Shown here: positions 3-60,817 of the stretch, in pieces
Position numbering within the stretch: the stretch's first letter is position 1
How the letters are laid out: every line of letters begins with the position of its first letter
Virus record (IMG/VR): IMGVR_UViG_3300030090_003481
Location: 31,092 to 95,091 of that record
Reading direction: 5' to 3' (one strand)
Source: a virus
Length of the DNA stretch: 64,000 bases
Position numbers and translations under genes: made by a program
Notes under the pieces: generated by a model
What the model saw: the letters and a program-made list of their open reading frames with translations, nothing else
Told to the model about the DNA's origin: nothing
The model's database searches: none

Positions 3-458
3 GATTCAAGTGAAGGAGCTGCTCTTGTTTGGGTTTGTTCTATGGATGCATGGAATGTCGCAAACTTAACAATGACTGCTTCTAGTTCTCAAAACTTTTT
101 TAAGACTTCGGGAACAGGTGGAAAATTATGGAGTGTAAAAGTAGGAGGTACGTCTAAAACAGTTACTATGTCTAGTAGTGCTTTAACAAATGGACAAGCC
201 TATGTTTTTATTTTTAACTTTAGAGTACAAGACAGTAATACATATTTAACATCTTATACAAATGGTGTTCAAGGAGAAGACCAAGATTACGGTAGTGTTG
301 ATGTAGATTTTGTACTTGATGAGATAGGTTTTAAAAGTACAGGTCTTGCACAAGGTATGAATGGTAAATTTTATGAGTTGTTAGCTTATAACAAACAATT
401 AACAGATACAGAAATAATAGATCTTAATGCTTACTTAATGGCTAAGCATAGTTTATAA
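3..458 (+). CDS. C-terminal part of a lectin-like (LamG/ConA-like) fibre protein, 5' end outside window
   Basis: The reading frame is open from position 3, before the first ATG at 42, so this is the tail of a longer gene and not a complete 138-residue protein. The sequence is rich in Thr, Ser and Gly with alternating beta-strand patterns. It ends in GKFYELLAYNKQLTDTEI followed by NAYLMAKH, the usual closing strand and helix of LamG or concanavalin-A-like domains in phage fibres. Such domains bind sugars, so it probably belongs to a head or tail fibre that touches the host surface. It is the first gene of the + strand virion arm. The fold is inferred from the closing motif; the exact location in the virion is unknown. 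Confidence 0.6.
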   Translation, partial: DSSEGAALVWVCSMDAWNVANLTMTASSSQNFFKTSGTGGKLWSVKVGGTSKTVTMSSSALTNGQAYVFIFNFRVQDSNTYLTSYTNGVQGEDQDYGSVDVDFVLDEIGFKSTGLAQGMNGKFYELLAYNKQLTDTEIIDLNAYLMAKHSL

Positions 459-1121: not shown

Positions 1122-2393
1122 ATGGATAACATAAAAAAATTAAGAGAGCATCTACTCACGAAGGGTAGAAACAAAAGTTACAATGAGTTGGCCGAGCTTT
1201 ATCAGATTAAAGATAAGGCTGGGCACATCTCAGGAGAAAGAGTAAGAGGAATATGGAGACGATTAAAAGTTTCTAGAGATCCACAATCAGATAAGAACCT
1301 TCCAAAGGTTACTAATGAGAATGGAAAACAATTTATCGATTACTCAGGATCTGAAATTACAACCTTAGAAGACTTGGTTGATACTGTTGGTGTTAACCTT
1401 GACTTCTGGGATGTTAAAAGTTTTAGGGCTTCGACCTGGCAAGACTTTAACGGAGATACTAAGTATGCGGTAAAAGCATCCTTTAATCAAAGTAAAGGCG
1501 CTAGGGATCAAATACGTGAAGAGTTTATAGAACATGCTAAAAAGCATGCTCCTAAATACAAAGCCGTAAAGTACCCTAAAGCTAAAAGTAAAGAGAAGGT
1601 TGCTTATGAAGTTAACTTACCAGATCTACATTTAGGTAAGTTAGGTTGGGGAAAAGAAGTAGGACATAGTTATGATGTTAACATAGCTAAAGCTATTTTT
1701 GTTCAAGCAGTTGATAAGTTATTAGCTTATTCTAATAACTTCCATATTGATAAGATAATCTTTCCTATAGGAAATGATTTACTTAACTCGGAAGGGTTAC
1801 ATATGGCAACTACAAAAGGAACACCTCAACATGATGATGTAAGATGGCAGCGGTCTTTTACTTTATGTAGAGAAATGCTTGTAGAAGTAATTGACAACTT
1901 AAGACTAATAGCACCTGTAGAGGTAATAATAGTTCCAGGTAATCATGACTACGAGCGTATGTTTTACATAGGTGATGTCATATATGCATGGTATCATAAC
2001 TGTAAGGAAGTTGAAGTAGACAATAGTCCTTCACCAAGAAAGTATACAACATATGGTGTAAACTTAATTGGACTTACACATGGTTCTAGTGAGAAGCAAG
2101 CTGATCTACCATTGATCATGGCTTCAGAAAGACCAGAGTTATGGGCAAAAGCTAAACATACTGAATGGCATATAGGTCACTTGCATAAAGCCAAATCTAT
2201 GAATTGGGTAGATATAGATGAAAGATTTGGTACAATAATAAGGATATTACCTTCCTTATCTGGAACAGATGCTTGGCATCATGAGAAGGGTTATGTAGGT
2301 AATACTAGGGCCGCTCAAGCTTATGCTTGGGGAAAGGATACTGGATACAAAGGCCATTTCCAGGTAAATATGAACGAACTTAAAATAAAATAA
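1122..2393 (+). CDS. Calcineurin-like metallophosphoesterase with N-terminal HTH-like segment
   Basis: The 423-residue protein carries the full metal-binding set of the calcineurin-like phosphoesterase superfamily. DLHLG lies at about residues 167-171, GND near 217, PGNHDYER near 272, THG near 320 and GHLH near 351. These residues hold two metal ions for hydrolysing phosphomono- or diesters. The first 50 residues (SYNELAELYQ...RVRGIWRRLK) look like a helix-turn-helix, so nucleic acid is a likely substrate. It has its own promoter 25 bases upstream and is followed after one base by a virion-protein gene. Placement among virion genes suggests late expression or packaging. The substrate cannot be told from sequence; phage homologues are often annotated as DNA repair exonuclease-like. 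Confidence 0.85.
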   Translation: MDNIKKLREHLLTKGRNKSYNELAELYQIKDKAGHISGERVRGIWRRLKVSRDPQSDKNLPKVTNENGKQFIDYSGSEITTLEDLVDTVGVNLDFWDVKSFRASTWQDFNGDTKYAVKASFNQSKGARDQIREEFIEHAKKHAPKYKAVKYPKAKSKEKVAYEVNLPDLHLGKLGWGKEVGHSYDVNIAKAIFVQAVDKLLAYSNNFHIDKIIFPIGNDLLNSEGLHMATTKGTPQHDDVRWQRSFTLCREMLVEVIDNLRLIAPVEVIIVPGNHDYERMFYIGDVIYAWYHNCKEVEVDNSPSPRKYTTYGVNLIGLTHGSSEKQADLPLIMASERPELWAKAKHTEWHIGHLHKAKSMNWVDIDERFGTIIRILPSLSGTDAWHHEKGYVGNTRAAQAYAWGKDTGYKGHFQVNMNELKIK

Positions 2394-2394
2394 A

Positions 2395-2832
2395 ATGGCA
2401 AAAAGTAGCAAAGTAACATTAGGTCTCACGATAAAAAGTGCAGATATTGTTCCTGGTGGAATGAACCGTTCTATTTCTCATACAGCTACAGCAAGTGACG
2501 ATACTTCTGAATTTGGTAAAATGACTGTTGGTACTAGTTATGAAAGAATAGACAAAAGTACTATAGCAGACAGAGCTTATGTATATATTAAAAATACTAG
2601 TTCAACTTCTACAGTAGTTATCTATGTAGCTATGAGTGAAGCTAGTAATGCTTCTACAAACTCACATGCTCCAGGTACTCATAATGGGCCTAGGTATGCT
2701 GAGATCGCAGTAGGAGAATTTATGCTTCTACCTTTTAAAGATCTTGATGGTACTGATAGTACAACTAAAGGGGTTCACGTTAAGGGAAGCGCTGCAGGAG
2801 AAATAGAGTATCTTATATTTGAGATGGATTAA
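2395..2832 (+). CDS. Small beta-sandwich virion protein, paralogue family copy 1
   Basis: A 145-residue protein of a family present four times in this window (also 2857, 6723 and 57152). Shared features are an N-terminal beta region, a middle AYVYIKNTS strand, then VGEFMLLPFKD and a C-terminal EIEYLIFE. The matching residues in the copies are GEW/GEF followed by a Pro-Phe or Pro-Tyr pair, and an EY or QY pair near the C terminus. It starts one base after the phosphoesterase gene stops, so translation is probably coupled. I infer a virion decoration or adaptor subunit; no named family is recognised. Confidence 0.7.
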   Translation: MAKSSKVTLGLTIKSADIVPGGMNRSISHTATASDDTSEFGKMTVGTSYERIDKSTIADRAYVYIKNTSSTSTVVIYVAMSEASNASTNSHAPGTHNGPRYAEIAVGEFMLLPFKDLDGTDSTTKGVHVKGSAAGEIEYLIFEMD

Positions 2833-2856
2833 TAATAATAATTAAAAAGAAATAAA

Positions 2857-3294
2857 ATGGCAGTAACAAAAAGATTTACAGCTAACTTATCTTTTACTAC
2901 TACAAATGTATTTCCAAATGCATTGTCTTTAAGTGAAGGTATGACTGTAACAATAGATGGAGATTCGGCAACTACTGGTTCTTTAAAAGTAACAAGTAGT
3001 GATCATATCGCAGTATGTACTTCAGATGCAAGTGCAGGTGATGATGGGGATGGGCTAGATTCTGATGCTAGAGCATTTCTATTAGTTAAGAATGTAGGTT
3101 CTAATACTGATGGGGATATAGAAGTAGAAGATAATGCAGAAGCTAGAATAGCACATCTTAAAGCAGGTGAATGGATGTTCTTTCCTTTTAGACATAGTGC
3201 TTCAGCAGATGCTTCTGTTAAGATTAGCGGAGCTAGTGCAACAGCTGGGTATTGTGAATATGTGGTGATAGAAACATCAATTACAGATTACTAA
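2857..3294 (+). CDS. Small beta-sandwich virion protein, paralogue family copy 2
   Basis: A 145-residue protein of the same family as 2395-2832. It has AFLLVKNVGS in the middle, AGEWMFFPFRH at about residues 107-117 and CEYVVIET near the end. An Asp/Gly-rich stretch (DASAGDDGDGLDSDA) precedes the first shared strand and could bind calcium. The two genes are 24 bases apart and read as a tandem duplication that has since diverged. A virion role is inferred from position and composition. Confidence 0.7.
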   Translation: MAVTKRFTANLSFTTTNVFPNALSLSEGMTVTIDGDSATTGSLKVTSSDHIAVCTSDASAGDDGDGLDSDARAFLLVKNVGSNTDGDIEVEDNAEARIAHLKAGEWMFFPFRHSASADASVKISGASATAGYCEYVVIETSITDY

Positions 3295-3297
3295 GAT

Positions 3298-3546
3298 ATG
3301 GCTAAATGTATATGTGGTAATGACATAGAGACTTGTGCTATATGTCATAGAAATAGAACTATAGAACAATTTGGTGGTCATCATAGTGGTGCAGTTAGTA
3401 CTAGTAAACAAGGTGGTGGTTTAACTAAATTATATATGGAAGACTATTGTTCTGAATGTGAAGAGGAGTCTAACGAGGAGTTAATGAAAGAATATGTTTT
3501 AAATAGCTTTACAACTAAGTACGAAAGCGAAGAAGAAGATGAGTAA
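3298..3546 (+). CDS. Small putative zinc-binding protein
   Basis: An 82-residue protein with cysteine pairs CICGNDIETCAIC near the N terminus and CSECEEE near residue 51. A Gly/His segment lies between them and the tail is very acidic. The arrangement suggests one zinc site made from two knuckles. The gene begins three bases after the previous stop and overlaps the next gene by eight bases. No named family is recognised; it might be an assembly factor or an adaptor rather than an enzyme. Confidence 0.65.
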   Translation: MAKCICGNDIETCAICHRNRTIEQFGGHHSGAVSTSKQGGGLTKLYMEDYCSECEEESNEELMKEYVLNSFTTKYESEEEDE

Positions 3547-4621
3547 ATTTATTAGATTATATGATAGCAAGTATACTCCTATTACAGGAGATATGTTTAC
3601 ACTGGAAGCTATTAATTATAGTGAAGATCCTGATATTACTTGCGCGTGGTCTGGTAATACTACTACTTCTGGGACTTGTGCTAGTTATATAAGTACAGAA
3701 AAGAGTCAAGAGTTAGTAGCAAGTTTCCAAGCTAGAGGTAGAACTATGGTCGATAATGGAGCAGAGATAGGATCATCGTCTAGAACACCTGATTTATATC
3801 CTAGGCAGTTCTATATAAAGAATGATCAAAGTGGATCTGTTGATAGTGAGTTTACTACTGAGTTATCTTTTGGAGATGAAATAGTTCTTGTTGATAGATC
3901 AGATGGCAAAACAATACATTCTTTTAATGTATTATCTACTGATTGTGCTAATTGTACTGATGATATAGTTAAAGTAGAAAGTAAAGATATTTTAAATGAA
4001 GACGGTAATTGGGTAAAATACGAAGTAGATGCTTTAGCTAAAGAGCTATTAATTGTACCAACTACATATCCTTATACTCCAGCTACTCAAACTGTTAATA
4101 ATCATGCAATTAAAGCTGTAAAGAAAAGTAGAGAAGACACATATGTAGATGTAGATATAGATACTATTGCAGCTTATAAAGAAAATCCTGATTATAGAGC
4201 AGAGATGATAGTTTTATTTAAAGAAGGTATTTATCCTAAAGGGAGTTATACAGTATTAAAAGACATAGTACATACTGGAGATCTAAATGATATAGTTATA
4301 GATGCTTCAGGTTATACAGGAGATGAGATAGAAGTAAAAATAGAGATAGACAGTACAACTGTTCCAGAAACATTTAAATGGAGAGCAGGTGAATATATAT
4401 CATCTACTACTCCTGCTAGTGCTTATGGAGAAACACAAAGAGGTTTGTCATTACAGTTTGTACCTTTAAATTTAGGTGATGGAAATATAAAAGTAAAATG
4501 GTTAGCTACTACAGGACACTCAACTGATACTTGGACATTTAAAGTATATCCTAATAATAAAAGAATATATAGAAATCAAGTAAAAGAATTAAATAAAATA
4601 TTTAAAGATATAACATATTAA
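3539..4621 (+). CDS. Virion protein of the neck/head region (unknown)
   Basis: A 360-residue protein with a beta-rich pattern throughout, several Cys (CAWSG, CASY, CANCTDD) and Thr/Ser-rich loops. There is no signal peptide or enzyme motif. It overlaps the 3298 gene by eight bases and is followed two bases later by a putative ring protein, so it is translated with the neck genes. In crAss-like phages this region codes for neck, ring and tail-completion proteins. I infer a structural role but cannot assign a specific one. Confidence 0.6.
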   Translation: MSKFIRLYDSKYTPITGDMFTLEAINYSEDPDITCAWSGNTTTSGTCASYISTEKSQELVASFQARGRTMVDNGAEIGSSSRTPDLYPRQFYIKNDQSGSVDSEFTTELSFGDEIVLVDRSDGKTIHSFNVLSTDCANCTDDIVKVESKDILNEDGNWVKYEVDALAKELLIVPTTYPYTPATQTVNNHAIKAVKKSREDTYVDVDIDTIAAYKENPDYRAEMIVLFKEGIYPKGSYTVLKDIVHTGDLNDIVIDASGYTGDEIEVKIEIDSTTVPETFKWRAGEYISSTTPASAYGETQRGLSLQFVPLNLGDGNIKVKWLATTGHSTDTWTFKVYPNNKRIYRNQVKELNKIFKDITY

Positions 4622-4623
4622 TA

Positions 4624-5361
4624 ATGGTAAAGACAAGGCGTATAGATATAATTAGTCGTATACAGGCTATGTATAGTAAAGGAGCAGCTAGCGATGACTC
4701 TCGTTTATCAGCTAGACATATATATTCTAAAATGAAAACATCTAGATCTTTTCTTTTAAAAAGAGAATTAGATAGACGTAAAAATGCTCAAGCGATTTCA
4801 GAATGGAACATACAAACTATACCTTGTGTATCTATGGTGTTAGTGCCTCCACATGAATGTCCATGTGCTCCACCTGTAGGATGTAAGATATTAAGATCAG
4901 AGTGCCCTATTCCTAAACCTATACAAAGTAATTTTACTGGTCCTTATTTAACTGACGTTACTTCTTTAGACGGTAGTATTATATTTACAGCTACTACTTG
5001 GTCTAGAAAAAAATATAGAAGTGCAGATAAATATACTGCAAATAAACCAGATTATTTTTTAAGAGATGAGTATTTATATATAACAGTAAATACTGATTTA
5101 GAAGCAGTTTCTTTAAGTGGTATATTTGAAGATCCTGATCAAGCAGACTTATTTATAGAAGAGTGTACTTGTGCTGAAGATTGTGTAAATCCTGAGATAA
5201 GCTGTCAACCATACTATGATAAATTTTTAGATATGGATGAATATTTAGTAGAACCTTTAATAGAATTAGTGATGAAAGAATTATTAATGTTAGCACAAAT
5301 TCCTTCTGATCAAACTAACAACGCAGTAGATGATAGAACAGGGCAAGGACAACAAAAGTAA
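4624..5361 (+). CDS. Putative neck ring protein (crAss-like), cysteine-rich
   Basis: A 245-residue protein with a basic helical N terminus (residues 1-60), a beta-rich middle, and a helical C terminus ending LIELVMKELLMLAQIPSD. It holds two Cys clusters, ECPCAPPVGC at about residues 78-87 and CTCAEDC near 180. Its position just before the HU-like and P22 gp4-like genes, and its all-alpha C terminus with the PSD ending, fit a crAss-like ring protein of the neck. The ring assignment is inferred from gene order and end-motif memory. The Cys clusters may form disulphides or bind metal. Confidence 0.55.
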   Translation: MVKTRRIDIISRIQAMYSKGAASDDSRLSARHIYSKMKTSRSFLLKRELDRRKNAQAISEWNIQTIPCVSMVLVPPHECPCAPPVGCKILRSECPIPKPIQSNFTGPYLTDVTSLDGSIIFTATTWSRKKYRSADKYTANKPDYFLRDEYLYITVNTDLEAVSLSGIFEDPDQADLFIEECTCAEDCVNPEISCQPYYDKFLDMDEYLVEPLIELVMKELLMLAQIPSDQTNNAVDDRTGQGQQK

Positions 5362-5767
5362 AACACTAGTAGATTCTTATAAAGAATTTGAAAAGTCTGG
5401 TGATAATATCTATAATGTAGATAAAGAAACATATAGAAATATATGTATAGATTTTAATGAAATGTTAATTGATTTAATTGTATCAGATGCAGAAGAAGTT
5501 TCTTTACCTTGTAGGTTAGGAACTTTAAGGATTAAAAAGATAAAGAGCAAAGAAAGAAAGATGGTTGATTGGAAGTTAACTAAAGAATACGGTAAACTAA
5601 TATACCATTTAAATATGCATACAGATGGGTATTATTATAAATGGCATTGGAAGAAACAAAATGCTTTGTTTACCAATAAATCTGTTTACTCTTTTAAGCC
5701 TTTGCGTAAATATAAAAGAGGTATGGCAAAGTTATTAAAAGAAAATAAAGTAGATTATTTTATATAA
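5330..5767 (+). CDS. Neck-region protein with HU/IHF-like features
   Basis: A 145-residue basic protein whose start overlaps the previous gene by 32 bases. The region around residues 40-70 (DFNEMLIDLIVSDAEEVSLPCRLGTLRI) resembles the core of HU/IHF folds, where a helical pair leads into a G-x-G/L-T-F beta strand. The remainder is rich in Lys, Tyr and Trp. Genes of this kind in crAss-like phages are often called IHF-like, and one sits between ring-protein genes. It may bind packaged DNA or act as a structural ring. Only the overall pattern supports the fold, so the function is tentative. Confidence 0.55.
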   Translation: MIEQGKDNKSKTLVDSYKEFEKSGDNIYNVDKETYRNICIDFNEMLIDLIVSDAEEVSLPCRLGTLRIKKIKSKERKMVDWKLTKEYGKLIYHLNMHTDGYYYKWHWKKQNALFTNKSVYSFKPLRKYKRGMAKLLKENKVDYFI

Positions 5768-5778
5768 ACATTTAAGTT

Positions 5779-6711
5779 ATGAGTGAATATGCAATGGTAA
5801 GTATTGAAAGAGTTATCTCAGGTGTATACCGAGATCTTAGACCTAAAACACAATTAGAAGAAAACGATTTAATTGAATGGGCAGCAGAAGCTTTAGAGCA
5901 AATAGGCGCTTATACTCAATACACTGAAGCAGTAGAGTATATCCCAGTAGTTGATTATAAAGCAATGATACCTTGTGGTTTTCATCAATTAGTTAGAATT
6001 GCATATAAATATACTCCAGGGGATCCTTGTGGTTGTGCATTTAAAATACAAAGTAGTAGTGATGGTGAATCATCATGTAGTTGTACAAGTTGTTCTGGAT
6101 GTTCTGCAGATCCTTGTGCTAGTTTATCTACTACATCAGAGTCTACATTAGTTACTCAAACTAAACAACTTATCGATTATCATCTAACGTATAGATTTAC
6201 AAGAGGTAGTGGTTATTATAAAGAATGGAAACCAATGAGATTAGCTACAAGTAATTATGCTAAAGCTAAGACAGCACATTGTGAGAATTGTATTAATATA
6301 AGTAATACATGTGATGCAGAATATAGTATAGACCATCCTTATATAAATACTAGTTTTCAAAAAGGACACATATGTATAGCTTATCTTAAACAACCTTTAG
6401 ATGATCGGAATATACCTATGGTGCCTGATCAAGTATCTTATATAGAAGCTATAAAGAAATATCTGATTATGAAAATATCATATGCAGATTTTATTAAAGG
6501 AGCAATCAATCCTAATATATTTGCTAAGCTAGAAGATGATTGGCATTGGTATTGTGCGCAAGCAAGAAATAAAGCTAACATGCCTGATACAGTAGACAAG
6601 TTACAAAATATGTTAGATAGACATGTAAGACTTATACCATACAGAAGTGGCTACTATGGCTTCTTTGGTAATATGAACTCAAGAGAACAACTAAGATTTG
6701 GAAATGAATAA
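5779..6711 (+). CDS. crAss-like portal-adjacent ring protein (P22 gp4 / tail tubular A-like)
   Basis: A 310-residue protein. The N-terminal helix pair (VISGVYRDLRP...DLIEWAAEALEQIGAYTQYTEAVEYIPV) matches the conserved neck-adaptor start seen next to the muzzle gene in crAss-like phages. Residues about 75-115 hold a Cys/Ser-rich insertion (SSCSCTSCSGCSADPC) not expected in the basic fold. The C-terminal half has a helical WHWYCAQARNKANMPD segment. It would bridge the portal and the tail muzzle. The next genes are a small paralogue-family protein and the muzzle, which is the expected order. Confidence 0.75.
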   Translation: MSEYAMVSIERVISGVYRDLRPKTQLEENDLIEWAAEALEQIGAYTQYTEAVEYIPVVDYKAMIPCGFHQLVRIAYKYTPGDPCGCAFKIQSSSDGESSCSCTSCSGCSADPCASLSTTSESTLVTQTKQLIDYHLTYRFTRGSGYYKEWKPMRLATSNYAKAKTAHCENCINISNTCDAEYSIDHPYINTSFQKGHICIAYLKQPLDDRNIPMVPDQVSYIEAIKKYLIMKISYADFIKGAINPNIFAKLEDDWHWYCAQARNKANMPDTVDKLQNMLDRHVRLIPYRSGYYGFFGNMNSREQLRFGNE

Positions 6712-6722
6712 ATAAATAAAAA

Positions 6723-7115
6723 ATGGCAAGAAATTTAACAACAACATTAGCTTTAACTTTAGCTAGCGCGATTGGAGATTCTAATACACATCAAGTAGAT
6801 GTTAGCGAAACATTATCTATGGCAGATGAAAAAGCAGTTGTCAATACTTTTAATGTAGGTACTTCTAGTGCTGTAGATATATCTTTAGCAGATATAACTA
6901 GAGCATTTGTATATGTTAGAAATATAGAAACTACTGGTACTCATACTGTAAAAATTATAGACCATGCGGGTAGTATCGTATTAACAATACTTAAAAAACA
7001 AGAGTGGGCTGTGTTTCCATACACACCTTCTACATCTGCTGGTACTGCTGTACTTAAAGCACAGGCAGTTGGAGGTGCTCAAAAAATAGAATACGCGATT
7101 ATAGAATACGCATAA
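6723..7115 (+). CDS. Small beta-sandwich virion protein, paralogue family copy 3
   Basis: A 130-residue member of the family also found at 2395, 2857 and 57152. It shows AFVYVRNIETTG in the middle, KQEWAVFPYTPS at about residues 93-104 and KIEYAIIEYA at the C-terminal end. Here KQEW replaces the GEW of two other copies. It lies between the ring protein and the muzzle gene. A position in the neck or tail is inferred from context. Confidence 0.7.
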   Translation: MARNLTTTLALTLASAIGDSNTHQVDVSETLSMADEKAVVNTFNVGTSSAVDISLADITRAFVYVRNIETTGTHTVKIIDHAGSIVLTILKKQEWAVFPYTPSTSAGTAVLKAQAVGGAQKIEYAIIEYA

Positions 7116-7125
7116 AACAAGATAA

Positions 7126-10100
7126 ATGGCTGAAGAAGAAAAAGAACAATCGGCATCTTTAAAAAGCTCGTTAACTAGTTCTCCAGGTAAAGGGTTAAAT
7201 ACAGACACTAGTCCTGAAGCACAACCTGAACGTAGTTATAGATTTGCTCTTAATGCAATGAATGAATCTCAAGAAGGAGATCAAGGGTTTCTAATTAACG
7301 AACAAGGTAATTATGAATGTGGTAGTTTAAATACTAGTGATTGGCTAGTAATAGGACATGTATATACTACTGAAGATACTGCTATTGTATTTCTAGCTCC
7401 TAGAGGTGCTGGTGATATTGGTATGGGTAAGATAGTAGAAATTACTGATTCTTGTAAGTCTACTACTATCATGACATCAGACTGCTTAAATTTTAGTGCA
7501 GAGTATCCAGTTCAAGCTGTTTATAGAATAAGACGTGGTTGTGAAAGACATATTTATTTTACTGATAATAATAATACAGTTAGAGTTTTAAATCTTGATT
7601 CATTAAGAGATTACTTAAAAGAAGGATTAGAAGATTTTATAATAGACAATCCTGATTCTTATCAAGAATCTCCTAGTATATGGGATTGTGAAAAAATGGG
7701 AATGTTTCCTAACATGACAATTCCTGATATATTTATAGAATCTATAATAGATGGAGGGGGTACTTTAAAAGTAGGAGCATATCAATTTGCTGTAGCTTAT
7801 CAAGATGAAGATTTAAATTCTACTAACTTTTTTGATATTTCAAATCCTATTCCTATTACAAAAGATCCTATTGGTAGCCCATTAAATGAAGCAGATGCTT
7901 TTGATATACAAGGATCAGAACCTGGGGAGACTACTGAAAAAACGATAAACTTAAGGTTTGATAATGTAGATACTTCGTTTACATTTCTTAGATTAGTTTG
8001 TTTACCAAGTACAAGTGGTACAGGTAATATAGATGGAGATGTATGGGAAATAGCTAATATACCAATTTCATCAGAAACAGTTGAATTTGCTTTTTCAGGA
8101 TGGGATGAAACAGCTACACCTAAGCTAGGATTAGATGATTTATTAATACCTAGTTTAGTATTTGAAAGAGCTAAAACTTTAGAACAAATAGATAATAGAT
8201 TAGTTCTTGGTAATATAGGAAATTCTGTAACTAACTGGTCTAAATTTCAACAAGCGGCTAATGATATAGCTATTAAGTATTATACAACTCCTTTGTATGC
8301 ATATTCTACTCATCATGGTGGACCTACATCTTATAGATACTATTCAGACTATAGAACATTTATGAGAGATGAAGTATATGCTTTAGGAATAGTTTGGATA
8401 TTTAGAAACGGACAAGAGTCGCCTGTATTCCATATACCAGGTAGAAAAGCTAATAGAGATCCGTTTGGAACTCCTTATGCTTTTAATGGTATACCAGGAG
8501 CTGATCCTAATAATCCAGAGTCTGTTGATCATAGTTCAGCAGCTAGAGCTCATTATAATGGAATGATTAGAGCAGAACATAATAGAAGACCTATTGAAAA
8601 TGGATTTAGTAATAGCGATCCTGATAAAGGTGGGTGGGATACTGATCCTGTTGCTACTAGTTTAGGTGATAAAAGTGTGTCTGATGGTGATACTAATCAT
8701 ATAAACGCTATGTCACGTGATTGTAATACTGAACATTTAGTAGGCTATTCTTCTGCTCAAGACGGTAATGTAGCTAGAACTCAAAGATGGAATGTTTGGA
8801 ATACAGCAATAAGAGATAAATATTATTGGTTAGATGAAGATGGTAACAGATCTACTAGATCTGAAGATTCTACGACTCTTATTACTGAAGGTCATATGGG
8901 ATATTACGAATGTAGAGATAAAGCATATCCTGATAAAAAAGATTGTTCTGGTGCTAGAGTATTTCCAGACGGTAATATAAGACACCATAGAATGCCTGAT
9001 ACTACACTAGAGCCACATTATTATGGAGATCCTTATAGAAGAGTTAGAGATAATTCTGGTACTGCACAATATTGTACAAATACAAATCCTTATTGTATAA
9101 ACGATACTTGGGTAGATCCTTCTACAAAATATTTTCTTACAGGTAATAATGATTATGGAGCTGGATGGGGAATGGGTGATGGCGCAGGACCAGCAGAACC
9201 AGCAAATGATGATTCTTATTTACTAGAAAGAATTATAAGTTTAGGAATAAAAGCTTTAAATGTTAATATACCTGCAGGTTTTGAAGATAGATTACAAGGT
9301 TTTAAAATAGTTAGAGGTATTAGAACTGATCAAGATAGATCTGTTTTAGATAAAGGTATAACTATGTATAATAACTGGGGTAGTATTGCAGGTCGTTGTG
9401 AACCAGAAACAGGTGTAGGCAATGCTGGAGCTTATGTAAATGGTTGGCAACCTGCTGTATCATCTGCAAGTAGTTGGGAACAGTGTGGTGGGTTAACAAA
9501 AGGATTTAGACATGGAGAAAACTCAAGCGGTTGGGGTAATAAAAACGATTGGCGTCAATGTGTTAATGATGAAGTAACTACTTTATTAAGGCCTTATGGT
9601 AATTATCCTGAGAATTGTAATAGTAATGTTGCAAATAATAGATGTATGCCTTGGTGGGCTGAAAATGATTGTGGTCCTGATCATAGTTGTATAGAAGGAA
9701 CAGGTAGTAACGGAGGTTGTGGTTATGTAGAGCATAAACCTTTTGTAGGTTATCCTCATGCAAATATGCCTTGTTCTAGAGTAACTACTTCTGGTAGTGG
9801 CTGGGGAAGACATACTCAAATATTTAGTGGTGGTTTATTTAATATAGCTTATCATGGTCCTTTAGGTAAATTTAGTACTTCTAATATAAATGCAGAATAT
9901 GTAAAATATGAAAGAATACTTGTAGGTAGAGTTAATGTTACAAGACATAATTCTCATGAAGGTTGTGACGATTGTGGTTACAGACCAGCTAGTTGGACTT
10001 TTCAATACTGTGATTTTAGTATGAGTTTTATACCTACACATGATCAAGGAAGATTATTTAGAGGGGGAGCTTATGATGGAGGTGATGATCAAGGAGGTAG

Positions 10101-12699
10101 TTATGATAGTTATGTTGGTCATGAATATTATGACAAACCTTTAGTTAATAGACGTATTGTTGCACAAGCTTATGCAGCAGCTAAAGGAGGATCTGTTAAA
10201 GCTACTTTTAGTAGCGATGATTTTAAAAATGGTTATTTCCAACAAGAGTGTTACGTATATGAAATAATGAATAGTATTTATGACTATGATCATTATGAAG
10301 ATATGGAAAGTGCAGGAGATAGAAATGGTATGATGAAAGTAGGAGTTCCTTATCCGTATCACAGATCTTATAGTAATGGTTGTAGTAGAGATCAAGATGT
10401 CCCTCGAAATAGATTTATGCAACCTCCTGCAGATAATAGCTGTTATCAACTAGATGATTCAAATAGCGGTATGGATCATTCAAAAGGTTATAGTGGTAAG
10501 GGTAAAGTACAAGCTAGTGCTTATTATGTTTCTCTTAAACAAAATGCTCCTAATGCATTTGGTAATTTATCAAATATTGATTATGTACAAACAGGTAATA
10601 AAATAAATAGATTAGGAAAAGATTATCCTGGTGTTGGATTAGTAGATGATCCTACTGATAATGGTTTTATTATGTTTGGAGGGGATGCTTTTATATCTAA
10701 ATTCGCATTTAGAAAAACTAACCATAATGTACTATGTTATAATTGTGATGGTGGAATTACAGGAGGAGAATTCTCTAGATTTGGAGGTATGTTCCATAAT
10801 AGTATTGTACATTACTATGTAGAGTCATATATAAATTGTGAATATAGGCATAGTCAATGTACAGCATCACCTGGTACATCTACATCTTTATCTGGTTTAA
10901 GCACAAATGATTATGATTCTCATTATCCTTATTGTACACTAGGAAATATTAATGATGGTTTTGGTTTACATGGTGGAGGGTTTTTAGATTCAGAAGATAA
11001 ATACGGAATATCTGACGGTACAAAAAGTACAGAAAAAATACCTGGCAATAAAATACATATCAATAAATATAATTTAAATTATGATTTTATAAAATCTAAT
11101 ACAGAAAAAAGATATAGAGGATTACCTATGACTTATGATTACTGTAGCGGATGTTATGAAAACTATCCAACAAGAATTGTTTATTCACAACAATCATTTA
11201 AAGAAGAAGTATCAGATAACTATAGAGTATTTTTTGCTGAAAATTATTCTGATATACCTGGTCATACAGGAGATATTACAAATCTATTTACTATAGGTAA
11301 TACAATATACGCACACTGTTCTGAATCTTTATGGAGATTATTTAAATCAAGACAAGAAGTAAAAACAGATAATGTTAGTCTTAGAATAGGTACAGGCGCT
11401 TTCTTAGCAGAACCACCACAACAAATGACTGAAGCAGAGTTTGGTTATCTAGGATCACAATCTCAGTGGGCTACAATAGTAACTGAAAATGGTACATTCT
11501 TTGTTGATTCTAGGCAAGGAAGAGTATATTTATTACAAGGAGATAAACCTGTAGATTTATCTAATGTTAGTATGAGAAATTTCTTTGAGAATAATCTAAC
11601 TTTAGAAATTAATGAACAGTATGAAAGATTAACGGGTGATAAATTTCCTTTAGGTGATCATCCACATCACCCTGAAGGATCAGGATTTATAGCTGCATAT
11701 GATTCTAGGCACACTAGATATATACTAACTAAAAGAAGTTATGTATGTTTAGATGAAGATGCTTTATTAAATGGTTATAGAAAAGTAGAAGGTACTCGTG
11801 ATTTTGATCCTGATAAACCATACTTATGGTTAAAACAATACGGTACATCAGATAGTGGTTGGAAAAGATGGGTATACAAAGCAAACAAAACAGCTAGTAT
11901 GCAGTTTGTAAATAATAGTCCAGCGTTTTTTAGAGACACAAGTTATACAGTAAGTTTTAATTTTAGTTTAGGAGCATGGGCATCATTTCATAGTTACAAG
12001 CCTAATGCATATGTAATATTTAAAAACTCTTTCTTTAGTAAAGAAAATAGTTGGAATGTTGATAACTCAGATACTTTATATAAACATGGCGTATCTCCTG
12101 AAGGAAATAATTATACTTGTTTTTATTCATCAAATCCATCACCATTTGCTGTAGATTTTATTGTAACTCAAAATGGATTAACAACTTTTGAATATAACAA
12201 TATACATTGGATAACACATGCTTCTGTATATAACCCAACTACTAGAACATATACTGATCAAAGATATTTTACATTTGACCATGTATTATTTTATAATAGT
12301 TATCAATCTAGTGGCCTTATTAATTTAATAAATAAAGATGGTGTTCCAACAGCCTTAACAACAATATCTAATTTTGATTCACTACATGTAGGACAAACTA
12401 CTATAGCTAGAAAAGAACGTACTTTTTCTATGAATGCTTTACGAGATGCTGTTATAGATAGAACACAACCTTTGTTTACAAAAGACTGGAATGATAATAA
12501 TTATCAATTTGCTCATAACCAAGGTTATTTAGATGCTATTAACTCAAATGCAGTTGGTGTTAAGCCTTGGTTCCAAGCTGAGAGATTTAGAGATAAATAC
12601 TTGGGAATTAGGTTAATTTTTAGTAACTTTGTAGGTACAGATAATTGTAAACTGATCTTTAATTATTTGTATACACAACAAACATTTACAGCTAGGTAA
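7126..12699 (+). CDS. crAss-like muzzle / tail stabilisation protein
   Basis: An 1857-residue protein. The region about 1390-1490 (LWRLFKSRQEV, GAFLAEPPQQMTEAEFGYLG, FFVDSRQGRVYLLQG, MRNFFENNL) is the well-conserved signature of the crAss-like stabilisation protein that forms the end of the short tail. The middle (about 450-1350) is a long insertion rich in Cys, Gly, Asp, His and Tyr with many CxxC-like pairs. This makes it larger than I would expect for the family and suggests metal- or disulphide-stabilised surface domains. It ends at 12699, sharing one base with the next ATG, so the two genes are coupled. The core assignment is firm; the role of the insertion is unknown. Confidence 0.85.
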   Translation: MAEEEKEQSASLKSSLTSSPGKGLNTDTSPEAQPERSYRFALNAMNESQEGDQGFLINEQGNYECGSLNTSDWLVIGHVYTTEDTAIVFLAPRGAGDIGMGKIVEITDSCKSTTIMTSDCLNFSAEYPVQAVYRIRRGCERHIYFTDNNNTVRVLNLDSLRDYLKEGLEDFIIDNPDSYQESPSIWDCEKMGMFPNMTIPDIFIESIIDGGGTLKVGAYQFAVAYQDEDLNSTNFFDISNPIPITKDPIGSPLNEADAFDIQGSEPGETTEKTINLRFDNVDTSFTFLRLVCLPSTSGTGNIDGDVWEIANIPISSETVEFAFSGWDETATPKLGLDDLLIPSLVFERAKTLEQIDNRLVLGNIGNSVTNWSKFQQAANDIAIKYYTTPLYAYSTHHGGPTSYRYYSDYRTFMRDEVYALGIVWIFRNGQESPVFHIPGRKANRDPFGTPYAFNGIPGADPNNPESVDHSSAARAHYNGMIRAEHNRRPIENGFSNSDPDKGGWDTDPVATSLGDKSVSDGDTNHINAMSRDCNTEHLVGYSSAQDGNVARTQRWNVWNTAIRDKYYWLDEDGNRSTRSEDSTTLITEGHMGYYECRDKAYPDKKDCSGARVFPDGNIRHHRMPDTTLEPHYYGDPYRRVRDNSGTAQYCTNTNPYCINDTWVDPSTKYFLTGNNDYGAGWGMGDGAGPAEPANDDSYLLERIISLGIKALNVNIPAGFEDRLQGFKIVRGIRTDQDRSVLDKGITMYNNWGSIAGRCEPETGVGNAGAYVNGWQPAVSSASSWEQCGGLTKGFRHGENSSGWGNKNDWRQCVNDEVTTLLRPYGNYPENCNSNVANNRCMPWWAENDCGPDHSCIEGTGSNGGCGYVEHKPFVGYPHANMPCSRVTTSGSGWGRHTQIFSGGLFNIAYHGPLGKFSTSNINAEYVKYERILVGRVNVTRHNSHEGCDDCGYRPASWTFQYCDFSMSFIPTHDQGRLFRGGAYDGGDDQGGSYDSYVGHEYYDKPLVNRRIVAQAYAAAKGGSVKATFSSDDFKNGYFQQECYVYEIMNSIYDYDHYEDMESAGDRNGMMKVGVPYPYHRSYSNGCSRDQDVPRNRFMQPPADNSCYQLDDSNSGMDHSKGYSGKGKVQASAYYVSLKQNAPNAFGNLSNIDYVQTGNKINRLGKDYPGVGLVDDPTDNGFIMFGGDAFISKFAFRKTNHNVLCYNCDGGITGGEFSRFGGMFHNSIVHYYVESYINCEYRHSQCTASPGTSTSLSGLSTNDYDSHYPYCTLGNINDGFGLHGGGFLDSEDKYGISDGTKSTEKIPGNKIHINKYNLNYDFIKSNTEKRYRGLPMTYDYCSGCYENYPTRIVYSQQSFKEEVSDNYRVFFAENYSDIPGHTGDITNLFTIGNTIYAHCSESLWRLFKSRQEVKTDNVSLRIGTGAFLAEPPQQMTEAEFGYLGSQSQWATIVTENGTFFVDSRQGRVYLLQGDKPVDLSNVSMRNFFENNLTLEINEQYERLTGDKFPLGDHPHHPEGSGFIAAYDSRHTRYILTKRSYVCLDEDALLNGYRKVEGTRDFDPDKPYLWLKQYGTSDSGWKRWVYKANKTASMQFVNNSPAFFRDTSYTVSFNFSLGAWASFHSYKPNAYVIFKNSFFSKENSWNVDNSDTLYKHGVSPEGNNYTCFYSSNPSPFAVDFIVTQNGLTTFEYNNIHWITHASVYNPTTRTYTDQRYFTFDHVLFYNSYQSSGLINLINKDGVPTALTTISNFDSLHVGQTTIARKERTFSMNALRDAVIDRTQPLFTKDWNDNNYQFAHNQGYLDAINSNAVGVKPWFQAERFRDKYLGIRLIFSNFVGTDNCKLIFNYLYTQQTFTAR

Positions 12700-21136: not shown

Positions 21137-24100
21137 ATGAGTAACGGTGACGAAAACACTAACAAACCTATAGATTTATATAATGTACAATTTGAAGATC
21201 CTACAATAACTGAGCAAGATGATCTTCAAGATTTATTACAAAGTCTACAACCTCCAGGATTTACGGCTCCTATAATCAATGATTATAAGCCTAAAATACA
21301 ATTAACAGAATCTTTATTAAGACAAAGAAGAACTAATGCAATTGATACTGCTCCAAGAATTACTGAAGCTTTTCCTGGATTTAGTGTAGAACCTGAGTAT
21401 GTTGAAAATAATTTACAAAGCGATAGTAAAAACTGGTGGAATACTTTATATGCACAAATAGATCAAATACAATTATCTAAATATAAAGGTAGAAAGTTAA
21501 TGCACCAAACTCGTATTGATGAGCTTAAACAAGAATTAGATACTAATCCTGAATTAAGTCCTGAAGATATAGAAGTATATACAAGAGAAATAAAAAAGCT
21601 AGAATCTGAGATACAAGATATTGAAATCGATATTGCAGAAGAAGAAGATGAATTATCTAGAAATCCTATTTCAGATTATTACAAAGAAGCTACAGCTGCA
21701 CAACAACAAGAAGAAGCAAGTAATTGGTGGTCTTATTTAGGTAGTGGAGAAGCAGCGCAAGATATAGGAGGATCTATGTCTGAAGCTATGTCTATGGCAA
21801 AAGCTATTGTTGGTCCACAACTTATTAAAAATGTAGGAATGAGATTAGCTGCTGCATGGGCAGGTACTAATGTAGCAAATGTTAATCCTTGGGTAGCTGC
21901 AGGTACTACAATTGCTGGTATAGGTTATGGATTATATGAAACCTGGAATATGCGAGATGCTGAATCTAATGCAGAAGCGTGGGATGCATATGAAACTAGA
22001 GTAAAAGAAGATATAGCTCTTTGGGAATCTAGAAATAGATCAAAAGCGCCTAAAGAATTAATAGAAGTAATTAAAAAAAGAGCTGCTAAAGGTGTAAGAG
22101 AAGTGTACCAACAAAACATGTTATTAGGTTTTGGTGATGTAGCTCAGGTAGGAGCAGGTATTTTCATGCCATGGGGTAAATTAACACGTAATTTATTAGG
22201 TACTAGTAGAGCATCTAAAGTACTTGGTTACGGAGTAGGTATGAGCTTTCAAGGTGGTATAGAAGGTATGGAAGAAGGATACCAGTTTTTAACTAAACAA
22301 GATTATTTAGAAGGTACATATGATAAAGGAAGTTCAGGAGGTACTTATGGTTTTGGATCAACGTTTGATGTTGGATTTTTAGATAGAGTATCAAGAGGTT
22401 TTAGTTTAGGTTTAGAAACAGGTCAAGCTATGATGGGTATGCTTAGCGGAGATTATGTAGGAGGCAGAACAAACAATCCAGAATTTAGAAATTCTGTAAG
22501 AGCAGGAGCTATATTAGGTGCTGGTATGGGTGCCACTATAGAGCTAGGACAAAATATATTTACTAAAGGATATAAAGAAGGACTTAACACTGTATATAAT
22601 AAAGCTAATAAAAAACATATAAATGATGTTATAGATAGTTATGGTAGAGAAGAACAAGTTCTTTATAGAGCAGGTAGTTATTATGATATGTTTTCAAAAG
22701 GTAAAACTGTAGAAGATATTACAAAAATAATAAATAAATTACCTGAAGATAACTTTATTCAGCTTACAAAAGATGAAGCTTTAGCAGATCTTAATGTAAT
22801 GAGAGGTATCTACGATAAATTACAACAACCTGGATATAAAAATTTATCAGCAGATGAAAAGAAAGTAGTTATGGCTACTATGATGAAGTCTAAAGATAAA
22901 GCTAAAATTGCTAGAAATATAGCAGCAGAAACAGAAAATACTATACAATCTATTTATGAAGCAGACTCAGGTATTGAAAGAAGGGACGGCTTTAAAGAAA
23001 TGAATAGAGTAAAAAACAGTTTAAAAGCTGTTGATAAAGCTATAACAGATATTAATAGTATATTAAAAGATAAAAATAAAGCAGTTAACCCAAAGAAAGT
23101 TAACGAAAGAGTACTTAGAGATACTCTAGAACAACTTGAAAATAAAAGAAAAGAATTATTAGGTAAAGTTGATGAAGCAATAGAAACATATGGAGGATAC
23201 TCTGAAGCATCTTTTAGCCAAGATGATAAATTAGTAGATTTAGAAAGTAAAAAAATAATTGCAGAGTTAGAAGCTGAGAGACATAATAATTATTATCTTG
23301 AGATGGAAAAACTTGATGGTGAAAATATTAAATATTTTGAACCATATGCTGAAGAGCTTAAGTCTTTTGTTGAAAACAAAAAAGAAGGCCAAAAGAAAGC
23401 AGCTAAAGCAGAAGAAGTTAAACAAAAGATAAAAGATCCTGATGGGGATATAAATGAAAATGATTTAGTATACTATAAAGGAAATGAAGGAACTGTATTA
23501 AAACGTAATTCTGATGGTACTCTTGATGTAAAAATAAAGTCTACAGGTATAACAGAAAAAATACCTGAAGACCAACTTGATAAATTAGAAACATTTGAAG
23601 GTGTTAAAGATAAATTATCAGAGACTAGAAAAAAGATAGAAGCTGGTGGATTATATGCTGACCAAGACCTTAATGAAGAAGGCGCTATAATACCAGATGA
23701 TATATTAGATGAAACTCTTAGCTTAGCTGAAGTATTAGAAGGAGAACATAAAGGACGTAATGAAGGGTCTAATAGACAAGGTACTGTTGTAGGTAGTCAT
23801 AAAAATGCTCAAATAAAAGGAACTAATCCAGATAATTTAGAAAACACAGGAGATGAAATAACTGCTGAACAAGCACAAAGAGATGCTAAAGAAGATGATA
23901 TTAGATTAAAAAAAGAACCAAGACCTAGATTTGTATTTTTAAGAAGAGTATCAGGAACTAGTTCTTATGCATCAATGGAACCACAAACTTCTTATTTTTT
24001 ATCTCAAACTCCTGAGAAAGAAATTATAGAAAACCATGATGTAATATACAGAATAAATTCTGCTGGATTTAGCCAAAGATTAATAGATAATCTTGGAGAA

Positions 24101-27100
24101 GGTGTAGTAAATTTATTTAAAAATCCTAAACCTATAACTCCAGGAATAGCAAAAGAATTAAATACTAATGTAGAAGATCTTACAAAAAAATTAATTAGTT
24201 TGCCAATAGAAATGGTGCTAGTTAATAAAAAAACTGGACAAATAGTAAAATCTAGAACAGAAGAAAGAGCTAAAGAACGTGAGGTAAGAGGTGTGTTGTA
24301 TGATAATGCAATGATAGCAGAAACTAAAAACAACCTAATTAAATTAAAAACACAAATATATAATATACTAGCACTTAATCAAACTCCTATAGGTAGTATA
24401 GAAGATATATATGGTTATCAAAGAATTAAATATGGAGAAGAACAAAATGATCCAAGACAAGTATTTGGTGATACATTAGGTAGAGTTGCTATTGGAGATA
24501 AGAATGAACAAGCACTACGTGAAAATAAAACTAGTAGTGAATATATACATCCTCATTTTAAATGGCAAGATAAATTTAATGGTTGGGTATTTTTAGAAAT
24601 AAATAGACCTAACAGTGTTACTCCTGTTAAAGCAAATAATAGAAATATAAATACACAAGAAGCTAAAGTTATATTAAATATATATAAATCTTTTCTTAGT
24701 AAAAAGGCTAGTCCTAAAACTCCTTATGCTAATTCAGGATTGACTTATGGGCAAATGTTAAATCTATTAGTATATGAAGGACCAGGTGCTAGTACATCTA
24801 AAATAGATAATAAATTATATGTCGACCTTACTAACAAACGTATACATTATGGTAGTAATAAAACAGGTAAAGGTAAGTTAACACCACAAGAAGAAGAGGC
24901 TTTTATAAATCATATAAAACAACATAAAAAACGTAGGATTGATCTACAATACACAAATAGAAGTATATTTTCTGGAGAGCTTGAGGCGCTAGAAAAAATA
25001 AATTTCTTAGGAACTGAGATTGAGAAAGGAAAAAATGATGATTATAATACAATCTTAATGGACCAAGGAGTTATAACTGTTAATACAGATATACAAACTA
25101 ATCCTTTTATGGATCCTAATATATTTTTAAGTAATGAAGTAAATGCTAAAGAGAAACCTCAAGTAATAAAAAAAGAAACTGAAACTACATTATCTAAACA
25201 AGATCAAGCTTTAGTAAATTGGCTATCAACATCAGAAGGTAGTTTAGATAATCAAACTGCTGCAGAGTCTGCAACAAAACTTGGTATAAAATTTACTCAA
25301 GCTAGAGATCAAGCTAGAAATGCTGGTAAAACTCGGGAAGAGATAGAACAATTTATGAAAGAAAATCTTGGACAAGAAATGTGGGCAGCTGCTGCTATAG
25401 GACTTAGAGCTGCTGAATTAGCTCCAAGATTAGAACAATTGTATAAAAAGTTTGGAAAAGATATAATTAAACTGAAAGATACTACAAAAAAATTAGATTT
25501 TGGTAATGAGGATATGGGTATGTTTTCTGAGGTTACACCAGAAACTTTAGGTAGCCCTATTATAGATGAAGCAGAAGCTAGAGCGTATTGGGAAAAAAGA
25601 ACAGATTTTCCTTTAGAATTTATAGATGATTTTATATCTATAGGAAATGAATTAGGTTCTTATGCTCAAGGTATGTTCCAAGCAACAGGTGTTAAATTAT
25701 CTAGACAAGCGGCAACAGGTGTAGAATACCATGAATTATATCATGCTATTGAAGAAACTATGTTAACTAATGAAGAGATTCAAGAGTTAAATAACGAGAC
25801 TATGAAGATAGTAGGATTACCTAGTGTTGCAGATTTATATAAATATAAAACAAGATGGGGTAATAAAATTAGTACTAAAGCTGTTAATGAATTAGGTTTT
25901 AAAACTAAAGATGATTACTATAGACATTTATATTTATCAGAGCATAGAGCAAATAATTATCAAAACTATGCAGCATCAGACGGTAAAACTAGATTTGGTA
26001 AGAAAGAAACTAATTTCTTTAAAAGATTATGGAACTGGATTAAAGGATTATTTGGCAAGCCTAAAACAACAGTTGATTCTTTATTTAAAAATATTCATGA
26101 AGGTTATTATAAAGGTAAAAATCCTAGACCAGAAAGAATGAAAGCTCTATCTGAAGCTGGAATAATATCTTATTCTGAAATAGCTGAAAGAGTATTTAAT
26201 GAAGATCAAATTGGTGATATAAGTTTATCTTTACTTAGACATGCAGTTGATAACTCAGGGGGTATTAGAACTTTACTTGAGAAAGATGAAATAATTGTTG
26301 ATATAGAAAATACATTTAATAATATTAAAGAACAAATAGCAAAAGACCCGAGTAAGCAATGGTTAAATAAAATTGTAGATCACGAAGAGTTCTTTAAAAA
26401 CGAACTAAGAAGCCATTTATTATTTATTAATGGTAAAGATACTACTGTAGAAACTGAGGTTGAAAATGCTATTGATGAGAATAATACAGAAATACTAGAA
26501 GCAACAAGACCTGCTTATGAAATATCTAATAGAGATAAAGCTAGGCCTGCTATAAAATTATTAGTATTACTTACACCAGAACTAAACTCTCTTAAATTAA
26601 AAGAAGGTAGTTATGATGTTAAGATTAGCCCATATACTAATTTAGTAAAACCTGCAGATGGTAATAATTTATTTTCTATACTAGAAAACGAACTATCTGA
26701 TATAGTTAGTGACTATATAGGTGATGAATTTGTTACTTCAGAAAAACAAATGCTAGATAAATTAAAAAAATTAGAATCTACAGATCCTAGTTTTAGATAT
26801 ATCTATGATGCTATTAATAAAATACCAGGATTAAAAACTAAATTCCATGCTGCATTTAATTTAAGATCTATGAATTTCTTAAATGCAAATCACAGAGGAA
26901 AGCCTGGCGCAGTTAAATTTAATTTATATGATCCAGGAGAATTTTCTAGAAGGTCTAAAGTAGTAAACCAATGGTTAGAGAATTTCCAAGATTTAAATTT
27001 ATTTGAAACTAAAGAAGGTGAGATAGTTGGAAACAAAGAAAATATAACACCTATTCTAACTGAATGGAAAACATTAAAAAACAACAGGCCGAATAATCCA

Positions 27101-56792: not shown

Positions 56793-57152
56793 TTGAAAAG
56801 AGTAAAAGCGGATACACTAGATAGAAAAGAATTCTATCCTAAGTATCTGAAATTGGTTAATGTAATATTACCAAAACCACTAACAACAAAGGAGATTGAG
56901 ATATTATCTGCTTTTATGGAGTTACAGGGTGATGCTATCGAAGATGATAGGTTTGGTACACAAGCTCGTAAGTTAGTGAGAGCAAAGTTTGGGTTTAAGA
57001 CTTACTCTAATATAGACAACTATATTAAGTTTTTTAAAAACAAGGGGGTTTTAATTAAGGAAGGTGATAAATTAAAAATTAACAGGAGGATTTTTATACC
57101 CAAAACTGAGAAAGAAGTAGAATTAACGTTTAAATTTAAATTAACAGACTAA
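56793..57152 (+). CDS. Small winged-helix-like protein at the head of the packaging operon
   Basis: A 119-residue protein starting with TTG at 56793; an in-frame stop at 56778-56780 rules out an ATG upstream. Residues 30-95 (LTTKEIEILSAFMELQGD..., FGFKTYSNIDNYIKFFKNKGVLIKEGDKLKIN) read as a winged helix: helix, turn, recognition helix and wing. It is the first gene after the host-type promoter, so it may regulate the late arm. Its stop shares one base with the next ATG. The regulatory role is inferred. Confidence 0.6.
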   Translation: MKRVKADTLDRKEFYPKYLKLVNVILPKPLTTKEIEILSAFMELQGDAIEDDRFGTQARKLVRAKFGFKTYSNIDNYIKFFKNKGVLIKEGDKLKINRRIFIPKTEKEVELTFKFKLTD

Positions 57153-57601
57153 TGGCTGGAAAAAATAACTCAGACTTAAAAGCAACAATAGCTTTAAAAA
57201 GTACTAAACTAGAACAAGGAGAGGGGTCTTTAGTGTTTCCTGGTGTAGATATAGATTTTTCTTTAGAAAGAACTTTTTCTATTGATGGAGATCATATATC
57301 ATGGGTAAACATGGATGTAGATAATACAGCTGCTAACAATATATTAACACAAAGAGTAGCTGCTACTGTAGACGCAGAGTCTAGACAGCTATTTTTTGGA
57401 TATAATGCTGGAGACACTGATGTAGTTATAGGTATGTATGATAATAGTGAAACTACTAATCATCCTATTTTATATTTAAAGCCTGGTGAGTGGGCTTTTT
57501 GTCCTTTTAAGTTTGGTCAAGCAACCGATTACTTAAGCGCAAGTGTAGCGTCAGGTACTGGATCTATACAATATGCAATATTTGAATTAGGAGTAAGTTA
57601 G
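57152..57601 (+). CDS. Small beta-sandwich virion protein, paralogue family copy 4
   Basis: A 149-residue member of the same family as 2395, 2857 and 6723, here in the packaging module. It has LFFGYNAGDTDVVIGMYDN in the middle, PGEWAFCPFKFG near residue 110 and SIQYAIFELG near the end. It shares one base with the preceding gene. Having a copy far from the other three shows that the family is used in more than one virion site or has been duplicated within the genome. Confidence 0.7.
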   Translation: MAGKNNSDLKATIALKSTKLEQGEGSLVFPGVDIDFSLERTFSIDGDHISWVNMDVDNTAANNILTQRVAATVDAESRQLFFGYNAGDTDVVIGMYDNSETTNHPILYLKPGEWAFCPFKFGQATDYLSASVASGTGSIQYAIFELGVS

Positions 57602-60699: not shown

Positions 60700-60817
60700 C
60701 GTACCTGTACTTAAAACTACACGTAAAAAAAGACCAGGAGTACATGCCAAAACAAGAACGAGTAATAGCAAACAATCAAAATTCTATATTAAAAAGTACC
60801 GAGGACAAGGGAAGTAA
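60686..60817 (+). CDS. 43-residue basic protein overlapping the TerL start (RPGVHAKT...YRGQG motif)
   Basis: A GTG at 60686 opens a 43-codon frame, out of phase with TerL, which overlaps it by 74 bases. The product is very basic: KRPGVHAKTRTSNSKQSKFY followed by KKYRGQGK. I recall this RPG(V/I)HAKT...YRGQG pattern from small phage proteins next to terminases, so both frames may be real. It may bind DNA or the terminase. The start is a guess, and an earlier gene would need to couple translation. Confidence 0.6.
   Translation: MRKVNVPVLKTTRKKRPGVHAKTRTSNSKQSKFYIKKYRGQGK

Follow-up and report, generated by a model that had tools for sequence, protein, structure and literature searches.

The window analysed here, a stretch of 64,000 nucleotides spanning positions 31092-95091 of a virus record of 95,091 bases, carries four small genes of one protein family on the + strand (here A1-A4). 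A1 (2395..2832; 145 aa) and A2 (2857..3294; 145 aa) are direct neighbours, preceded by a calcineurin-like phosphoesterase gene and followed by a Cys-rich ORF of 82 aa. A3 (6723..7115; 130 aa) is located between the genes for ring protein 1 (5779-6711) and a muzzle-type protein (7126-12699). The large terminase gene (60744-62855) begins 3.1 kb downstream of A4 (57152..57601; 149 aa), the start codon of which overlaps the end of the preceding ORF (TAATG). When the whole record was searched with a profile, exactly five copies were detected, the fifth (i.e. A5; 129 aa) being outside the window at L007:7742-8131 (record 23742-24131). A1, A2 and A3 belong to the tail-barrel operon and A4 to the packaging arm, while A5 adjoins fibre and outer-membrane-like genes; no family copy is present beside the MCP gene of this genome. 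A/T-rich leaders with no Shine-Dalgarno motif (AATAAAATAAAATG type) precede A1, A2, A3 and A5 (window positions 2371-2397, 2833-2859 and 6699-6725 for the copies within the window).

The source of the window is, by the sequences of its genes, a crAss-like phage. The MCP of this genome (L006:8173-9591) matched the crAss001 MCP gp32 at 6e-33, the products of 4624-5361 and 5779-6711 matched crAss001 ring protein 2 gp40 (8e-12) and ring protein 1 gp43 (5e-8), respectively, and the large terminase exhibited ~36% identity to annotated crAss-like and Flavobacterium phage terminases. The muzzle-type protein is so labelled because its gene follows that of ring protein 1 and because it matched a PHROG virion protein; a PDB sequence search with it gave no match. 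The translation of a 1966-aa ORF (L006:930-6830) contains four X residues, as the record has a few consecutive ambiguous bases there. The genes next to A5 (L007:8133-13122, record ~24133-29122) encode a thioredoxin-like protein and a secreted outer-membrane-like protein (8133-9251), for which a Sphingobacteriales MAG contig has a homologue (2.5e-139); the same cassette contains a staphylococcal-nuclease homologue (PF00565) and a secreted protein of 797 aa in which GCTDxxAxNYNPxAxxxDGSC repeats occur.

A preliminary description had proposed a four-copy family on the basis of three shared motifs. All three regions were present as described in A1-A4 (i.e. a middle strand of AYVYIKN, AFLLVKN, AFVYVRN and QLFFGYN, a centre of GEFMLLPF, GEWMFFPF, QEWAVFPY and GEWAFCPF, and a C-terminal EYLIFE, EYVVIE, EYAIIE and QYAIFE, respectively), except that the centre of A3 reads QEW and not GEW. 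Pairwise identity among the copies is only ~19-29%. Pairwise blastp within the four gave E-values of 1.6e-10 to 2.6e-4, and blastp and phmmer together connected all four copies, the strongest links running through A2. An out-group HMM was built from 82 relatives, with the window's genome and its near-identical contigs excluded to remove circularity, and was searched against all 380 ORFs from the window and from the initial 31.7 kb of the record. All five copies were recovered at 1.2e-9 or better (A1, 6.8e-16; A2, 2.5e-23; A3, 7.3e-14; A4, 1.2e-9; A5, 2e-18), the next ORF of the same genome being at 0.016. In a control, 10,000 shuffled copies scored at most 12.9 bits as compared to at least 32.9 bits for the real copies. 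These comparisons indicate that A1-A4 are homologous, paralogous copies of one family, as had been proposed, with the count raised by the fifth copy outside the window. A LamG-like ORF at window positions 3-455 was considered as a sixth copy and rejected, its E-value of 0.016 falling inside the shuffle noise.

Tree tests neither backed nor rejected a recent duplication of A1 and A2 (p-AU 0.34) or a single clade of all five copies (p 0.07), the deep branches being long and without resolution. An A4 orthologue in L009 is 77% identical, with a dN/dS of ~0.21 (dN 0.156, dS 0.73). Other copy pairs also had dN values well under dS, with dS saturated in several pairs. By these estimates, the family is under purifying selection.

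When IMG/VR was pattern-scanned using three relatives as queries, 222 loci were confirmed, 80 of which were taken for analysis. Among 85 distinct arrays, 27 consisted of one gene, 33 of two, 16 of three and nine of four, and copy number among relatives ranged from 0 to 5. As judged from these loci, the family is widespread in uncultured phages; many of its IMG contigs are presumably marine, going by IMG numbering. Three copies also occur on a single prokaryotic-genome contig that had been binned as a Sphingobacteriales MAG, in a neighbourhood like that around A5, which points to Bacteroidota as hosts. The preliminary description recognised no named family, and library searches agreed. With a match defined as a score above the curated cut-off or E<=1e-3, a scan of 72 members reached at best 0.0022 in Pfam and 0.011 in PHROG, scattered over unrelated families, and a PDB sequence search of A1-A4 and the 72 members detected no family match and no relative among solved structures. 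No match was obtained by tblastn of five family members against 50,697 isolate-phage records, or any credible one by profile search of crAss001, phi14:2, Fpv20, Panino, elemovirus and MW202828, and the family was absent from all crAss-like isolates examined. A limited literature search found no paper describing it. The family is, as far as these searches reach, undescribed and outside the libraries searched; in function, as accessory capsid proteins, it would be of a kind already known. What sets it apart is how many paralogues one genome holds and how they are scattered, five dispersed paralogues being, to our knowledge, out of the ordinary.

Structures were predicted with AlphaFold2 for two of the five copies using 71-72 family sequences as input. 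The models of A2 (pLDDT 81.4, pTM 0.75) and A4 (pLDDT 78.4, pTM 0.72) were both all-beta, with ten strands in the same order, and a common fold is predicted for the two, an agreement that is not fully independent because their alignments share most rows. Unrelated predicted folds, which the preliminary description had named as the outcome that would overturn the family, were not seen in these two models. In BFVD, the best fold matches were small uncharacterised phage proteins, with significant E-values down to 1.5e-8. These were A0A516KXL4 and four proteins of one virus, NIOZ-UU157 (7e-6 to 1.1e-4), which resemble the family in size and in being multicopy within one virus. No Foldseek match of either model to the PDB reached E 1e-3. 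The recurrent nearest PDB neighbours of both models were jelly-rolls of Bacillus Ena appendages (PDB 7a02, 8pdz, 9i0y; top or near-top), followed by assorted beta-sandwich proteins. The Ena match is weak (Foldseek E 1.3e-3 to 9.5e-3, probability 0.99-1.00, target-normalised TM ~0.45-0.57) and is accompanied by no sequence relationship; the likeness of the models is best treated as a lead on fold class and not as kinship. Members in nine loci (about seven distinct; L101:9989-10756, L106, L112, L114, L127, L141, L146, L148 and L151) are 237-283 aa long and carry a ~90-residue insert in the same loop, after the conserved PW strand. This loop is probably exposed because it accommodates the insert, in which no Pfam match was found for the two examples tested.

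Gene context was counted for the 68 distinct arrays that had 1.5 kb or more of downstream sequence, neighbours being scored within 2.5 kb. Deduplication of the arrays relied on their sequences, and these counts may still include loci that overlap on one contig. The commonest place for an array was directly upstream of the scaffold and MCP genes (32/68), followed by the terminase (10/68) and ring or muzzle genes (2/68), while 24/68 lay by a group of thioredoxin, nuclease, M15-peptidase and secreted-protein genes instead of the head module. The order in one group, which includes L080, L111 and L148, is terminase, portal, small ORFs, family array, small ORF, scaffold, MCP and ring-type proteins. 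The scaffold label rests on position only; the MCP of L111 was assigned from its position, from tblastn matches to Flavobacterium and Cellulophaga phage structural proteins and from a match to a PHROG annotated as 'virion structural protein', and had no PDB match. Just downstream of the MCP gene lies another group of small ORFs, repeated and beta-rich in appearance (MDRYCFFMN... type; L148:12651-14298 and L080:13821-14138).

The preliminary description had suggested a search for copies in other crAss-like genomes, and copies were found in relatives, with three in the tail operon of G003 and one by the terminase of G002. The operons of the window and G003 (L169) share one order (i.e. phosphoesterase, two family genes, a Cys-rich ORF of 82-83 aa, one gene, ring protein 2, IHF, ring protein 1, a family gene and muzzle). 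G002 (L171) has the phosphoesterase, an 86-aa ORF, one gene, ring protein 2, IHF, ring protein 1 and muzzle, and the operon of G004 (L170) runs from an 85-aa ORF through ring protein 2, IHF and ring protein 1 to the muzzle; neither operon contains a family gene. No copy was found anywhere in the 90-kb record of G004, for which completeness is not given. As collinear operons of relatives either contain the family genes or cleanly lack them, these genes are optional in structural operons. The empty slots argue against an essential role in the neck and in favour of accessory parts, and the neck fillers envisaged in the preliminary description are weakened accordingly. The first gene of the G003 pair matched A1 at 7.7e-9 and the second matched A2 at 1.5e-16, such that orthology of the pair appears better shown by gene order and similarity with G003 than by the trees. 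At this threshold, no match to A3 was obtained for the G003 copy beside the muzzle, which resembles the MATT-type subgroup; the slot may therefore have been refilled independently.

Small accessory capsid proteins for different hexon sites are known from crAss001, whose head fibre proteins gp21 (HFT, trimer) and gp29 (HFD, dimer) (PMC10172136) are encoded between portal and MCP, as are the family arrays in L111-type phages. The family exhibited no sequence homology to gp21 or gp29 (hhalign probability 0.2-0.4%), and neither protein was among the best 50 PDB fold matches of the models. In addition, gp21 and gp29 are not reported as paralogues, whereas the family copies are paralogous. The decoration (cement) proteins of tailed phages have several folds, trimers being most typical (PMC7602432). 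Both they and the family are small, beta-rich, accessory and variably present, but those with solved structures include no detectable sequence relative of the family. The family members of the window are of a matching kind, being of 130-149 aa with single-domain, all-beta models and being accessory as judged from the empty tail-operon slots of G002 and the lack of any copy found in G004.

The family as a whole comprises small (about 125-165 aa) putative beta-sandwich, jelly-roll-like proteins with tandem expansion in the structural operons of many phages. The favoured reading, to which a probability of roughly 0.62 is assigned, is that A1-A5 are accessory jelly-roll-like virion proteins acting as late-docking, stabilising or adhesive surface decorations. 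This reading is favoured by the out-group homology, the shared strand order, the linkage of arrays in relatives to scaffold and MCP genes, the clean presence or absence, the copy number of 0-5, the low dN/dS of A4, the probably exposed insert loop and the BFVD fold matches to small phage proteins. Each copy would fold alone, form a small oligomer and dock late, either outside the capsid (i.e. at hexon centres or capsomer junctions) or on a neck or tail collar, where it would stabilise the particle or bind host or surface polymers. By analogy with the two fibre proteins of crAss001 on two kinds of hexon, the paralogues might occupy different sites, as the preliminary description had suggested for sites of different symmetry, or have different ligands. 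The capsid decorations of the preliminary description gain indirect support from the gene order of relatives and the small all-beta fold, but the window genome's own copies are in tail-barrel, fibre and packaging regions and not beside the MCP. Further points against decoration are the 24/68 arrays outside the head module and the absence from the crAss-like isolates examined.

A tenable if less probable alternative is that the copies are virion-borne ligand-binding adhesins (i.e. carbohydrate-binding modules) selected for host or polysaccharide range, whose number and sequence track the host surface. This proposal is compatible with the decoration reading, so that confidence in the two overlaps. 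Presence or absence and expansion of copies would be expected of such adhesins, fibres, an M15 peptidase and a secreted repeat protein are among the neighbours, and CBM-like folds occur among the weak Foldseek matches. However, the CBM sequence match is weak (PF03422 at E 0.012, short of the cut-off), no conserved ligand-site residues were identified and generic beta-sandwich matches are common. A role as tail or neck components, either as small adaptors docking fibres to the tail barrel like the crAss001 tail hub proteins or as fillers of symmetry mismatches, is unlikely. Two features shared by the window and G003 would suit this role, namely a copy that separates the ring protein 1 gene from the muzzle gene and a pair lying shortly before the gene for ring protein 2; so would the L010/L011 arrangement, in which the third copy is on the other side of ring protein 1, between IHF and ring protein 1. 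Against it, these slots are empty in G002 and G004 and the largest class of arrays is beside scaffold and MCP. The crAss001 tail hub protein THB gp39 is likewise small and encoded near ring protein 2, but gave no profile match to the family (hhalign probability 0.2%).

Somewhat less likely again is a mobile, modular 'coat kit', in which several phage lineages would have inserted, duplicated and shuffled a jelly-roll family among head, tail, fibre and packaging operons, giving up to five paralogues per virion, each with its own site or ligand; some members may even polymerise by strand augmentation like the subunits of Ena, their weak fold neighbour. It is improbable that the copies are non-virion proteins (i.e. 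small beta proteins of late infection that are either secreted or kept inside the cell). The arrays by thioredoxin-like, nuclease, peptidase and outer-membrane-like genes (24/68) would fit, but the copies of the window and others inspected by eye begin MA-(T/K)..., without a signal-peptide-like start, and the arrays directly upstream of scaffold and MCP keep a conserved order. Chance likeness among beta-strand proteins, for which the low pairwise identity might speak, is refuted by the out-group HMM and the shuffles, is also at odds with the collinear full-length strand order of the A2 and A4 models, and can practically be dismissed.

If its members are virion proteins, this widespread, unannotated family would be a marker of phage structural modules, and the window's genome would show how a crAss-like particle may be outfitted without recognisable crAss001 head fibres. 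The collinear relatives with and without family genes would then constitute a natural deletion series for what capsid decorations do.
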